Source: Afipia sp. 1NLS2
GTDB taxonomy: Bacteria > Pseudomonadota > Alphaproteobacteria > Rhizobiales > Xanthobacteraceae
Assembly (NCBI RefSeq): GCF_000178995.1
Contig: NZ_ADVZ01000001.1
Coordinates: forward strand, 62,001 to 126,000
DNA length: 64,000 bases
Direction of reading: 5' to 3'
The notes under the pieces were generated by a model. That model was not told where the DNA came from and did no database searches. It saw only the letters and a list, made by a program, of their open reading frames with translations. Below are positions 36,061 to 40,049 of this stretch, one piece after another; position 1 is the stretch's first letter; each line of letters opens with the position of its first letter. A program made the position numbers and the translations under genes.

Positions 36061-37104
36061 ATGAGCACGATCATGACAAACACCATCGTGAAGACCGGCC
36101 TCGCCTTCGCCGCACTCCTGCTCGCCGCTTCGCCCGCTCTCGCGGACCCCGTGCAGGACGTGATCCACGGCCCCTCGCTGCGCGCCAGTGTCGTGATCTC
36201 GAGCGACGTGGTGCGGATCGGCGATCTCGTCGACAACGCAGGCACCGCCGCGCAGATCGCGATCTATCGCGCGCCCGACCTCGGCACCACCGGCATGGTG
36301 CGCACCGCGCAGTTGATCGAGACGCTGCGTGCCAATCAGGTGGTCGGCGTCGATACCCATAGCCTCAAGGAAGTCGCGATCACCCGCGCCTCGCGTCCGC
36401 TGCCCGCCAAGGACATCGAGCAGCAGGTGGCGAAGGCGCTCGCACATCGCGGTGGCCTTGGCGATCCCGAAAACCTGTCGCTCACCTTCGACCGCGAACT
36501 GCGCGACATCCAGCTCGATCCGGCGCTCACCGGCGAAATGATCGCGGTGGCCACCTATTACGACCCGCGCAGCGGCCGCTTCGACGTGCTGTTCGACATC
36601 GCCAGCGACACCTCGTCCTCGCCCGCGAAGCTGCGCTTCACCGGTACCGCGGTCGAGACCGTGCAGGCCGCCGTGCTGATGCGGCCGATGGAGCGCAACG
36701 ACATCATCAAGGCATCCGACGTCAGCATCGAGCGCCGTCCCAAATCCGAAGTGGGCTCCGATGGAGTTTCGCTCGACCGCGCGATCGGCATGCAGATGCG
36801 CCGCGCGATGCGCGCCGGACAGGCGCTGCGGACCCTCGATCTCGCCAAGGCCGATCTGGTGACGCGCGATCAGGGGATCACGCTGATCTACGAGGCACCC
36901 GGCATCTATCTCACCGGCCGCGGCAAGGCGCTCGAGGCCGGCACCAAGGGCGACACTGTCAACGTCCTCAATCTGCAATCGAAACGTACCGTGCAGGGCA
37001 TTGTGGTCGGACCGGGTCAGGTCGCCATCATCGCCGCCCAGCCGCGCGTCATGCGGCCCGCGACTCTCGCCGCCAACTCCGTCGCAACCGGAAAGATCGA
37101 GTAA
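36061..37104 (+). CDS. flgA: P-ring assembly chaperone FlgA
   Basis: This 347-residue periplasmic protein has a signal peptide (TGLAFAALLLAASPALA) and a C-terminal SAF/FlgA domain (AAVLMRPMERNDIIKASDVSIERR ... GQALRTLDLAKADLVTRDQGITLIYE ... DTVNVLNLQSKRTVQGIVVGPGQV). It helps FlgI polymerise. The region before the SAF domain is longer than in enteric FlgA. The stop overlaps the flgH start. Confidence 0.93.
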   Translation: MSTIMTNTIVKTGLAFAALLLAASPALADPVQDVIHGPSLRASVVISSDVVRIGDLVDNAGTAAQIAIYRAPDLGTTGMVRTAQLIETLRANQVVGVDTHSLKEVAITRASRPLPAKDIEQQVAKALAHRGGLGDPENLSLTFDRELRDIQLDPALTGEMIAVATYYDPRSGRFDVLFDIASDTSSSPAKLRFTGTAVETVQAAVLMRPMERNDIIKASDVSIERRPKSEVGSDGVSLDRAIGMQMRRAMRAGQALRTLDLAKADLVTRDQGITLIYEAPGIYLTGRGKALEAGTKGDTVNVLNLQSKRTVQGIVVGPGQVAIIAAQPRVMRPATLAANSVATGKIE

Positions 37105-37853
37105 TGTACAGGCATCGAAAGCGTCATCTTCTCTGCACCGCTGCCGCACTCGCGATGATCGGATGCCTCGCCGGTGGCTGCTCCTCGCTCGAGCGCCTCG
37201 CCAATGTCGGCGAGCAACCGAAGCTGTCGTCGATCGACAACCCGACGACAAAGGCAGGCTACAAGCCGGTATCGATGCCGATGCCGACGCCGCAGCCCGC
37301 ATCCTACAACCCCAACTCGCTGTGGCGGAACGGCTCGCGCGCCTTCTTCAAGGATCAGCGCGCCCATCAGGTCGGCGACATTCTCACCATCACCGTCAAC
37401 ATCACCGACAAGGCCAACATCGCCAACGAAACCCAGCGCAGCAGGTCCGGTACGGAAGATTCCAACATCACAAGCTTCTTCGGCGTGAAGAAGGTGCCCG
37501 GCACCAACACCTCGGGCAACATGCTGACGACGGATTCCACCTCCTCCACCGACGGCAAGGGTTCGATCACGCGGCAGGAAGCGTTGCAGACCAACGTCGC
37601 CGCCGTGGTCACGCAGCTTTTGCCGAACGGCAACCTCGTGGTCGAAGGCAAGCAGGAGATTCGCGTCAATTATGAAATCCGCGAACTGGTGGTCGCGGGC
37701 ATCGTGCGGCCCGAGGACATCCAGAGCGACAACACCATCGACTCCAGCAAGATCGCGCAGGCCCGCATCGCCTATGGCGGGCGCGGCCAGATCACCGACG
37801 TCCAGCAGGCACGCTACGGACAACAGGTGATGGACATCCTGCTTCCGTTCTGA
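37104..37853 (+). CDS. flgH: L-ring lipoprotein FlgH
   Basis: This 249-residue outer-membrane protein has a lipobox (LAGGC, Cys about residue 26). The FlgH core follows: SLWRNGSRAFFKDQRAHQVGDILTITVNITDKANI ... LLPNGNLVVEGKQEIRVNYEIRELVVAGIVRPEDI ... ARIAYGGRGQITDVQQARYGQQVMDILLPF. Its ATG overlaps the flgA stop. Confidence 0.97.
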   Translation: MYRHRKRHLLCTAAALAMIGCLAGGCSSLERLANVGEQPKLSSIDNPTTKAGYKPVSMPMPTPQPASYNPNSLWRNGSRAFFKDQRAHQVGDILTITVNITDKANIANETQRSRSGTEDSNITSFFGVKKVPGTNTSGNMLTTDSTSSTDGKGSITRQEALQTNVAAVVTQLLPNGNLVVEGKQEIRVNYEIRELVVAGIVRPEDIQSDNTIDSSKIAQARIAYGGRGQITDVQQARYGQQVMDILLPF

Positions 37854-37928
37854 TCGCGAACTCTCCCTTCGCGATCTTCCGAGCTCCCACGCCGATCCGT
37901 GAACCTAGGCATGGAAAGGCGTCTACGA

Positions 37929-37966
37929 CGCGGCCTTCGCTAGCTCCCCTGGCGAAGGCCGCGGCC
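37929..37966 (+). terminator. Terminator of flgF-flgG-flgA-flgH
   Basis: CGCGGCCTTCGC (37929-37940) and GCGAAGGCCGCG (37952-37963) form a perfect 12-bp stem with an 11-nt loop, followed by GCCGTTTT. The 3' arm plus tail is duplicated 1.2 kb downstream at 39162. Confidence 0.75.
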
Positions 37967-37970
37967 GTTT
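37946..37970 (+). repeat. att-like direct repeat, left copy
   Basis: These 25 bases, from the loop through the 3' arm of the flgH terminator to the T-run, recur at 39162-39186 with a single G-to-A change. The two copies flank the integrase remnant and small accessory genes, as the ends of an integrated element would. Confidence 0.65.
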
Positions 37971-38092
37971 TACTGATGCGAGGAAACAGCGTTGTTATGG
38001 GCTTTTATGATTGCAGCCTTGCAAGTTCATGGACCGGAGACGCGGAACCTTCGGCGTCCTCGCTGATTTCAGTCCTCACAGAGGAGGAAATC

Positions 38093-38335
38093 ATGAAAAA
38101 GCTATTGTTAGCCGTAGGATTCATTTCAGTGATGACGGTGCCGTCCATAGCAGCGCCGCAGGACTATTCAATCGTTCCAAACGCGCCCCGTTCAGCATCC
38201 TCAATGGATCGGTCGCGCGATCCAGCGGGCGTTACGACGGGATCGTATTATGAGGGGCTGCGGTCGGGCCGCTATCGCCACTCGCGAGCGTATTACCGCA
38301 GGCACCATCATCACCATCATTATCGCTACTGGTAA
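38093..38335 (+). CDS. Small secreted protein with His/Tyr/Arg tail
   Basis: An 80-residue protein with a signal peptide (MKKLLLAVGFISVMTVPSIAA). The mature part ends in a basic aromatic tail (RAYYRRHHHHHHYRYW) that could bind metal or anionic surfaces. GAGGAGG precedes the ATG. It lies inside the 1.2-kb cassette between the direct repeats. Function unknown. Confidence 0.7.
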   Translation: MKKLLLAVGFISVMTVPSIAAPQDYSIVPNAPRSASSMDRSRDPAGVTTGSYYEGLRSGRYRHSRAYYRRHHHHHHYRYW

Positions 38336-38340
38336 TAAGA

Positions 38341-38376
38341 AAAAGCCCGCCGCTCCGAGCATTGAGGGCGGGCTTA
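38341..38376. terminator. Hairpin with A-tract, cassette copy 1
   Basis: AAGCCCGCC pairs with GGCGGGCTT (9-bp stem). The T-run needed for termination follows the stem on the minus strand only, so it would stop minus-strand transcripts best. A related hairpin lies at 38643. Confidence 0.5.
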
Positions 38377-38440
38377 ATGCTGGACTCCGGCTCTCATTGA
38401 GCGCAGCGTGGCGCCACCGTCCCCCGCCCAGGAGGCTGCG

Positions 38441-38590
38441 ATGGAAGAGTTCCTCCATACGGAGAATCTCAAGCTTTACCGAAAGGTGCTTGATGAGACG
38501 ACCGACGAGGTCAAGCGCAAATCCGTTGCCGAATTGATCCGCAACGAACTCGCAAAAGAGCCGAAACCGACAAATCCAAAAGATAATTGA
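38441..38590 (+). CDS. Small charged hypothetical protein
   Basis: A 49-residue soluble helical protein (MEEFLHTENLKLYRKVLDETTDEVKRKSVAELI). GGAGG sits 7 nt before the ATG, which favours this start over an upstream in-frame ATG. Part of the accessory cassette. Family unknown. Confidence 0.6.
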   Translation: MEEFLHTENLKLYRKVLDETTDEVKRKSVAELIRNELAKEPKPTNPKDN

Positions 38591-38642
38591 AACGCGCCAG
38601 ATGATGGACGCGGAAGGTGCGGCCACGCCGAGCCATAGAAAA

Positions 38643-38675
38643 AAGCCCGCCGCCGGAGGCATCCGGGGCGGGCCT
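38643..38675. terminator. Hairpin with A-tract, cassette copy 2
   Basis: AGCCCGCC and GGCGGGCCT-like arms form a stem with an A-tract on its left, as in the 38341 hairpin. On the minus strand this gives a TTTTTT tail. Likely a terminator for leftward transcripts. Confidence 0.45.
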
Positions 38676-38805
38676 GAGTCCGGGAGGTGTGGACGTAACC
38701 CGGTGCACGGCGGGAAGTTCAATTCGGCATGAAGCCGAATGCGGCCAGCATCAACAGCACCCCGGCAATCGCGATGCGCGCCTGGGGCCACCTGCCGTCT
38801 GATTA

Positions 38806-39148
38806 TTGCTTTGGGCAATCTTGAGCGCACCAAGATCCGGCCTGTGTTTTTCTATCACGAACGGTCGGTTGGTATTCCGCGCATGGAAAGCCGCGATCGA
38901 GAAAGCTGGCATTTCCTATTTGGCTTTCCAGCTGTCGCCACGGATTCACAACAGCGATGCTTCATGCGGGCGTCGATCCGGTTACGACAGCCAAGCGCGG
39001 CGGCTGGAAAAGCGTTCGGGGGCACGTCTTTGACACATACGGACATGCAGCCGAAGACGCCACGATCACTGGCATCATGGCTGACACAAATTCGACACAG
39101 CGAAAATCTCAGCAGCCAAGAAGCAAGCTAAAGAAACGCGCTTCTTGA
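38806..39148 (+). pseudogene. Tyrosine-recombinase (phage-type integrase) remnant
   Basis: The C-terminal part of a phage-type integrase can be read in two frames. Frame 1 (38806-39033) includes FRAWKAAIEKAGIS, the segment before the catalytic box II. Frame 2 (38957-39148) has MLHAGVDPVTTAKRGGWKSV ... VFDTYGHAAED, the region around the final His/Arg/Tyr of such enzymes. A frameshift lies between about 38930 and 38960, and the HxLRH segment is lost. The N-terminal half is absent. This is a decayed gene, likely the source of the flanking repeats. Confidence 0.75.
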
Positions 39149-39161
39149 ATTAGCATCGCCC

Positions 39162-39186
39162 CCCCTGGCGAAGGCCGCGACCGTTT
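39162..39186 (+). repeat. att-like direct repeat, right copy
   Basis: This copy matches 37946-37970 at 24 of 25 positions. It begins just after the integrase remnant, as expected for an attachment-site half on the far side of an integrated element. Confidence 0.65.
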
Positions 39187-39272
39187 CGTGGGGCATAGAC
39201 ATAATTCAACGGCGGGATGGAACGTGATCGCCGTTGTCGCCTTGGTTAGCGATAACCGAAGGAGAGCGCGTG

Positions 39273-39485
39273 ATGTCGGGCTACAATCAAGAAAGCCAAG
39301 GCAGGCAGACTCCCAGGGGTCATGAAACCCACCCTCAGAGTACCGGACACCCTCCGCCAATGTCAGGCCAGAAGGAAAGCAAAGATCATTTGGATAGCAA
39401 GACGCAAGAACAACTGCGGAAGGATAATGTTCTGAACGAGGAGAAGGGCCTCATACACCAGCTTCCGGGTGGCGAAAGCGGTTAG
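39273..39485 (+). CDS. Small hydrophilic hypothetical protein
   Basis: A 70-residue protein, rich in Gln/Ser/Gly/Lys (MSGYNQESQGRQTPRGHETH) and probably disordered. GGAGAG upstream supports the 39273 start. It lies just outside the right repeat. No family is recognised. Confidence 0.55.
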   Translation: MSGYNQESQGRQTPRGHETHPQSTGHPPPMSGQKESKDHLDSKTQEQLRKDNVLNEEKGLIHQLPGGESG

Positions 39486-39577
39486 GCCTGACCCGACATA
39501 AACCCATCGCCAGCGTCATCAGCCACGGAACGCAAGGCGCGCCGTAGCGCGCGAGTTCCTAAGCAAAGAACATCAAC

Positions 39578-39612
39578 AAAAAGGCGCGCCCGGCATTCCG
39601 CCGCGCGCGCCT
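39578..39612 (-). terminator. Terminator of dksA
   Basis: AGGCGCGC and GCGCGCCT form the outer stem around a GC-rich loop, followed on the minus strand by TTTTTGTTG. It lies 24 bp after the dksA stop. Confidence 0.8.
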
Positions 39613-39635
39613 GTTTCGGGATCGGGCTTTCAGCC

Positions 39636-40049
39636 CTATTCGTCGCGATAGACTTTTTCGCGCTTCTCGTGGCGTTCCTGCGCCTCGACCGACAGCGTCG
39701 CGATCGGCCGCGCTTCGAGCCGCTTCAAGGAGATCGGCTCGCCGGTCTCCTCGCAATAACCGTAGGTATTGTCCTCGATGCGCTGGATCGCGGCATCGAT
39801 CTTGGAAATCAGCTTGCGCTGGCGATCGCGGGCACGCAGTTCGATGGCGCGATCGGTTTCCGACGATGCACGATCGGCAAGATCGGGGTGATTGACGTTT
39901 TCTTCCTGCAACTGCTGAAGCGTGGTCTTTGCCTCGCGCAGGATTTCTTCCTTCCAGGCGAGAAGTTTGGCGCGGAAGTATTCGCGCTGCCGTTCATTCA
40001 TGAACGGCTCCTTCTCCGACGGTTTATAGGCCTTCACTTTTTCCAACAC
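39636..40049 (-). CDS. dksA: RNA-polymerase-binding regulator DksA (Cys-poor type)
   Basis: This 137-residue protein acts with ppGpp in the secondary channel of RNA polymerase. The coiled coil carries DLADRASSETDRAIELRARDRQRKLI with the acidic tip. The zinc-finger region has only one cysteine (YGYCEETGEPISLKRLEARP) where four are found in E. coli, so zinc binding is unlikely. This loss is common in alphaproteobacteria. Its closeness to flagellar genes may reflect growth-state control. Confidence 0.93.
   Translation of the reverse strand: MLEKVKAYKPSEKEPFMNERQREYFRAKLLAWKEEILREAKTTLQQLQEENVNHPDLADRASSETDRAIELRARDRQRKLISKIDAAIQRIEDNTYGYCEETGEPISLKRLEARPIATLSVEAQERHEKREKVYRDE

Follow-up and report, generated by a model that had tools for sequence, protein, structure and literature searches.

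We interpret the 1.2-kb cassette between flgH and dksA of Afipia sp. 1NLS2 as the scar of a prophage that a tyrosine recombinase integrated into the last hairpin of the flgH 3' RNA, a reading to which we assign a probability of about 90%. It is backed by a duplicated site, by an exact empty site in a relative, by a 41.5-kb prophage with the same layout in a second species and by a homologous piece of integrase at the same end. The original prediction, that an integrated element used a hairpin as its attachment site and restored that of the host, is thereby supported and refined to the scar of a larger prophage. All coordinates refer to the window, the whole stretch of 64,000 nucleotides that was analysed (contig NZ_ADVZ01000001.1, positions 62,001 to 126,000, forward strand).

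A duplicated half hairpin at both ends of the cassette

The host gene upstream of the cassette is flgH (37104-37853, plus strand; Pfam FlgH PF02107, 3.9e-57), which encodes the flagellar L-ring protein and, in the best C-terminal tblastn piece, is 77 to 98% identical in 23 relatives of the same genus. Its 3' region (37883-37975, fold z -6.0) comprises two hairpins on the plus strand, the first at 37889-37922, with covariation in 26 sequences, and the second at 37929-37963, for which RNA folding gives 15 pairs and a loop at 37944-37948. A 25-bp sequence at 37946-37970 recurs on the same strand at 39162-39186 with a single mismatch (G at 37964, A at 39180), exactly as had been predicted, so that direct repeats (attL and attR) are present at both cassette ends. 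With up to three mismatches allowed, the repeat has two matches in the window and none in 100 shuffles of it; the whole 3.97-Mb genome, searched at the same tolerance with R at the mismatched position, likewise holds two and no third. Occurring only twice in its own genome, the repeat is not the dispersed sequence that would have spoken against the prediction.

The two copies differ in what they contain. The left one takes in three bases at the end of the loop together with the 3' arm and tail of the 15-pair hairpin, and thus forms part of a complete host hairpin with its tail (attL, 37929-37970, plus strand), where AGCTCCCCTG is conserved at the loop; the genome has a single copy of this RNA. 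The right one (attR, 39162-39186) is loop end, 3' arm and tail only, and its stretch folds no better than shuffled sequence.

The copies can also be compared with sites that carry no insertion. The empty sites of two genomes of the same genus, G007 and G012, read GACCGTTT; the attR of the window reads likewise and agrees with the G007 site at each of the 25 positions, whereas attL reads GGCCGTTT. The right part of the left copy, with G at 37964 followed by TTTTAC, is unlike the empty site, and we take this half to be derived from the element. Since attR has the reading of the empty site and attL does not, the exchange would lie to the left of 37964. In Afipia clevelandensis, whose occupied site is described below, the two copies differ only close to their left edge, which would place the exchange there to the right of that edge. 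Provided that the two sites are in register, we infer from these sequences that exchange took place within about 37948-37963. Our proposed exchange segment, CTGGCGA (37949-37955, plus strand), is drawn from the attL/attR differences in both genomes, which confine the exchange only to the wider interval; its length of 7 bp follows the example of tyrosine integrases already described (PMC10111431), and a spacing control does not single out that length.

Empty sites in relatives

The flgH-dksA stretch was searched against its own genome and 60 relatives. In G007, the flgH-side alignment ends at window position 37970 and the downstream one begins at 39162, and the two overlap by exactly 25 bp; this is an empty site, in which one copy of the repeat joins the same two flanks, as the original prediction had anticipated for close relatives. 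The anchor on the right is dksA (39636-40049, minus strand; Pfam DksA_N 6.6e-31, zf-dskA_traR 2e-12). Between it and attR lies, on the host side, a 70-aa ORF (39273-39485, plus strand); G007 and G021 have it too, after their one copy of the hairpin, and G012 lacks it there. The DNA to the right of the window attR matches the intervals of G007 and G021. Its counterpart in A. clevelandensis has matches in other species as well, with G015 alone for the first kilobase. Because the sequences beyond each attR are matched in other species, they are host flanks.

Among 29 genomes of the genus, 24 could be compared by their flgH and dksA anchors, namely the window genome, A. clevelandensis and 22 with both anchors in a single stretch; the other five (G002, G006, G009, G023 and G025) were unusable, flgH or dksA being unmatched or on another contig. 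We searched for further copies with the window repeat at up to seven mismatches and with each genome's own hairpin half at up to six. A convincing second copy was absent from 22 of the 24 and present only in the window and in A. clevelandensis, which are the only two occupied sites in this set. In none of the 24 do both copies occur without intervening DNA, an arrangement that would have contradicted the prediction. Matches set aside at the loosest settings were one in G007 (6 to 7 mismatches in 25) and one in G026 (7 mismatches). The match in G007 (L035) contains 16 nt identical to the attR half, about 519-534 past the flgH stop, where a minus-strand ORF has its 3' end downstream of the empty site.

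Outside the genus, 248 genomes of the family were searched for longer intervals between flgH and dksA, and ten were fetched among the matches listed (G142, G266, G185, G156, G200, G231, G240, G214, G172 and G259). The hairpin was recognised in seven of the ten and dksA was reached in six; within the stretches fetched, those seven showed no second hairpin copy at up to six mismatches. The 26-kb interval of G142 and the 13-kb interval of G266 were considered as integrations of this kind and rejected for want of a second copy.

A 41.5-kb prophage at the same hairpin

Afipia clevelandensis ATCC 49720 (G014), a congener of the window genome, carries its own version of the hairpin half twice, as exact copies of 23 bp that lie 41,526 bp apart. 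The DNA between them is present in IMG/VR as a virus, and PHROGs names five of the eight ORFs tested (portal protein, terminase large subunit, endolysin, head closure and single-strand DNA binding protein). The remaining ORFs are two whose matches are all to families without known function and one that matches none. A 333-aa protein is assigned to Phage_integrase by Pfam and to integrase by PHROGs, and its gene stops 13 bp before the right copy. The suggestion that other elements may occupy the same site is thus borne out by a phage-like element of 41.5 kb at this hairpin, which has a duplicated half of its own. At the attR of A. clevelandensis, the orphan half can pair with the DNA that follows into a new hairpin (z -2.2).

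This occupied site bears on a very improbable account of the window, in which replication slippage or illegitimate recombination copied the hairpin half and the piece of integrase arrived separately. Hairpins are prone to slippage, and only one mismatch separates the two copies, as such a passive duplication would allow; against it, the same kind of duplication surrounds a 41.5-kb prophage in a second species, and the differences between attL and attR fit a site-specific exchange.

Contents of the cassette

Everything predicted to lie between the copies was found, namely two small ORFs, two A-tract hairpins and the C-terminus of a recombinase in more than one frame. The first ORF (38093-38335, plus strand, 80 aa) has, by eye, a signal-peptide-like N-terminus and a His-rich C-terminus; it has no Pfam or PHROG match, and tblastn against the loci fetched by then gave matches at chance level only (best E 0.14). 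The second (38441-38590, plus strand, 49 aa) also lacks a Pfam or PHROG match and is the only small cassette ORF with recognisable relatives, 52 to 81% identical, at other loci of three genomes of the genus (two in G004, two in G024 and one in G019). No phage structural gene was recognised among the small ORFs by Pfam or PHROGs, and it is for this reason that we call the element in the window a scar and not a prophage.

Two G+C-rich A-tract hairpins lie at about 38342-38377 and about 38639-38677. The first recurs in the same genome at C9:585959-585996 and also in G021, the second at C9:585532-585573. Both recur as neighbours once elsewhere in the genome (C9:585532-585996, L094), where by eye they flank another small ORF.

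The C-terminal part of a tyrosine recombinase, broken into pieces in different frames, was located on the plus strand at 38799-39148 by tblastn with the A. clevelandensis integrase. Its longest in-frame piece (38930-39148) comprises 72 aa and a stop, with RHGF, GGWKS and TYGHA, and the remnant is 62% identical to the C-terminus of that integrase over 58 residues (E 2e-22 including the second piece in the other frame). An integrase thus sits at one end of both elements, as a broken C-terminal piece in the window and as a 333-aa ORF in A. clevelandensis. Beyond this remnant, nothing in the cassette DNA matches the prophage region of A. clevelandensis. Immediately within the right end, the 16 nt TTCTTGAATTAGCATC (39142-39157, plus strand) are identical, and in the same place, in the viral contig locus L178. 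The G+C content of the cassette is 56.5%, compared with 57.0% for the prophage and 62.4% for the window; this is weak support, since the A. clevelandensis flank is low as well, at 58.9%.

Two nearly perfect att copies around a compact unit with small ORFs would also suit a small, non-autonomous, satellite-like element of 1.2 kb, moved in trans by the integrase of a full phage. We regard this as improbable, for the unit carries a decayed C-terminal piece of integrase where the prophage has the full gene, as a scar predicts. Moreover, the unit has no second copy in its own genome, and its own genome and 60 relatives match it elsewhere only at the region of the 49-aa ORF and at the hairpins. The scar of a larger prophage remains the reading that we prefer.

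The flgH 3' RNA as host site

Compensatory changes on both sides occur in 13 of the 23 predicted pairs of the two-hairpin region across 26 sequences, in an alignment from which G036 and G031 were excluded, eight genomes with differing 3' regions having been left out before. Nearly or fully invariant stretches lie around CTCCCAC, GAAC..AGGC and AGCTCCCCTG; in the RNA, those that contain CUCCC look anti-Shine-Dalgarno-like by eye. Under strict filters, a covariance model built from these sequences detected the RNA once apiece in 4 genomes out of 150 of the order, so that more may exist; the four are the window genome and three of one other genus in the same family. Rfam has no family at this position of the window up to E 1, and in the loci of 12 relatives it gave only sub-cut-off matches to two Brucella sRNAs, in L097. 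The two-hairpin RNA at 37883-37975 may be a 3' RNA with a regulatory role in the flagellar operon.

With a strong G+C-rich stem and a short T run (GTTTT) after it, the second hairpin may, by its appearance, be a transcription terminator. A terminator scan of 37800-39700 returned two sites, with 2.4 expected, and the flgH hairpin was not among them. The original prediction spoke of a duplicated flgH terminator; the duplicated hairpin half stands, and the terminator is a putative one, given the short T run and a scan that passed the hairpin over. Nor is the site a tRNA or tmRNA gene that ARAGORN recognises, as it called no genes in the window.

Related integrases at other RNA sites

Relatives of the A. 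clevelandensis integrase occur in 7 of 296 genomes of the family, itself included (E 1e-30 or better), and a profile search at 1e-60 found one encoded in 7 of 397 genomes of the order, two of which are also in the family list. IMG/VR contributed 60 integrase loci, including the query phage and a few that are truncated or distant.

In many loci the integrase stop is followed by a core found in the leader of serC. Among six host genomes, five (G183, G265, G268, G320 and G321, which include Pseudaminobacter salicylatoxidans and Shinella pollutisoli) hold two copies of this core and G076 none; the virus record G322 holds one. All five have one of the copies 18 to 30 bp ahead of the start codon of serC, which NCBIfam identifies as phosphoserine transaminase. 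G183 and G265 alone have both copies on one contig, at a distance of 12.2 kb in the former and 39.5 kb in the latter, where the copy nearer the integrase is about 0.7 kb from it. Three further hosts (L126, L127 and L129) also have the core after the integrase. For the integrase relative of G076 (57%), no second copy of its flank was found. Where an element is inserted in the serC leader, the gene no longer adjoins the DNA that natively precedes it (L107/L113, L108/L114, L105/L111, L106/L112 and L109/L115).

Rfam places the serC leader (RF00517) at attR in 3 of 8 loci of one set and in 6 of 12 of another, in which L141 is the same contig as L081; only L176 of these nine matches passes the curated cut-off. 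The leader is not named by Rfam in L073 and L085, serC types of the first set, or in L126 of the second.

Other structured RNAs stand at the same end of related integrases. G154 has a complete Rhizobiales-2 sRNA (RF01723; 94.8 bits, cut-off 40) directly beside the integrase and, at a distance of 45.4 kb, a second copy of the 3' half of the sRNA terminator (96% over 22-23 bases, E 0.045); we counted this copy since contig, strand and layout are all the same. Rfam finds a tRNA above cut-off at the integrase end in L183; ARAGORN reported no tRNA in L131, L132, L181 or L183, and the three tRNA labels other than that of L183 were read by eye. Two further types of core follow the integrase stop in the TCAGAGGAC and TAGGAAAC groups (L143, L145, L146, L150, L151, L152 and L160).

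These loci return us to passive duplication, since in G154 and in the five serC-type hosts related integrases lie between two copies of their own core, a point that counts against it but is weakened in that three of those five hosts have the copies on different contigs.

Five of 52 integrase loci, A. clevelandensis included, carry a flgH-like half hairpin that lies 5 to 15 nt from where the integrase stop begins and, over 18 positions, matches one of 32 flgH hairpins with 1 to 3 mismatches. In 60 shuffles per locus the best match had 5 mismatches, and no other locus came below 5. The stretches fetched for the four viral loci among them match neither flgH nor dksA beyond chance, so these halves may be phage attP sites.

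A shared core and a tree of the integrases

The pattern CCC-N7-GGG follows the integrase stop in 12 of 52 loci (shuffled mean 1.0; a count reached in 0 of 500 shuffles). When C-run and G-run are 5 or 6 apart, the counts are 13 and 18 of the 52 loci, and a fixed CCC-N7-GGG core was rejected because both spacings are commoner than 7. We claim that the cores would best be described as a dyad of C-run and G-run around a short spacer, as expected for DNA that encodes a hairpin.

We labelled a quick tree of 68 integrases by target, using patterns together with assignment by eye. The labels were serC (15, or 16 with L085), contig ends (16), flgH-like (5), a serC-like variant (5), tRNA (4), the two extra core types (4 and 3) and Rhizobiales-2 (1), with 15 rows unlabelled. 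Left out were L128, L130, L133, L134 and the loci of the first IMG/VR search, seen again elsewhere except for L082, which has no row either; L189-L192, truncated or distant, also have no row, and L136 was dropped by the script. A second tree omitted three distant rows (L077, L131 and L132); both trees are quick and their branches weak.

One starred set of 18 rows unites the five flgH-like loci, Rhizobiales-2, the seven of the two extra core types, one serC and four unlabelled loci; the remaining 50 comprise 14 serC, 5 serC-like, 4 tRNA, 16 contig ends and 11 unlabelled. Target labels are clustered on the tree, with 29 changes against a shuffled mean of 43.3, and in 0 of 200 shuffles was the number as low. 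For the flgH label, the starred branches require no fewer than two changes. The 72-aa fragment of the window is left unplaced, and it scores slightly better with L073 and L075 (serC types) and with the viral L135 than with the A. clevelandensis integrase. On these scores and the tree, a common flgH-specific ancestor would be conjectural, and the window element may belong to any of several sub-lineages. An order of targets from tRNA to serC to flgH is only a suggestion, as the tree is unrooted.

Discussion

In the history that we favour, that of a decayed prophage, the phage attachment site would have carried the loop end, 3' arm and tail of the flgH hairpin. A crossover in the shared core would then leave the hairpin complete next to flgH (attL) and an extra 3' half at the opposite end (attR), so that the host RNA would have stayed whole. 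Later deletion and point decay, in an order that we infer, would have removed nearly all of the phage DNA, most of the integrase included; what remains is two small ORFs, two hairpins and, adjoining attR, the C-terminus of the integrase. Speaking against this history are the lack of a recognised phage structural gene in the cassette, the failure of cassette DNA outside the remnant to match the A. clevelandensis prophage, the slightly better scores of the 72-aa fragment with three other integrases, the small number of occupied sites and the 16-nt match in G007.

Prophages and islands with tyrosine integrases are reported to use the 3' part of a tRNA and restore it, the hot spots in S. meliloti including tRNA-Thr(GGU) (PMC11476347). 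The present element resembles tRNA-type islands in an attP that replaces part of the host site, in the direct repeats at its ends and in its tyrosine-type integrase, and differs from them in its target, the hairpin of a non-tRNA RNA behind flgH. An integrase clade of HE-PICI is reported to take new targets repeatedly (PMC10111431). The likeness lies in a single clade of integrases whose subclades occupy different targets, and the difference is that the targets there are phage late genes, while here they are structured non-coding RNAs in Hyphomicrobiales. Related integrases likewise have structured RNAs where they attach, namely the serC leader RNA (RF00517) and the Rhizobiales-2 sRNA (RF01723); the flgH 3' RNA, unlike these, matches no Rfam family up to E 1 at its position in the window. 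The integrase of Bradyrhizobium phage ppBeUSDA76-2 (OP596614) is 62% identical over 95% of the query, and the record ends at the integrase gene. We found no attachment site in a flgH 3' hairpin named in the literature searched, in which subscription papers are mostly absent and which is therefore weak evidence.

The loci described here comprise empty, full and decayed sites of one attachment site in a conserved non-coding RNA hairpin, and provide a traceable case of what we read as one integrase clade changing its target among structured RNAs. They bear on what leads mobile elements to favour RNA genes, be it the dyad symmetry of the DNA, its conservation or the ease with which the host half is restored. 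Tentatively, and as a possibility that we rate well below even odds, a single clade of Hyphomicrobiales phage integrases may recognise hairpin-encoding DNA and may have moved among tRNA, serC leader, sRNA terminator and flgH 3' RNA, in which case lysogeny at leader or regulatory 3' sites could alter serC or flagellar expression. One integrase clade at several structured RNAs would be the part new to a specialist.
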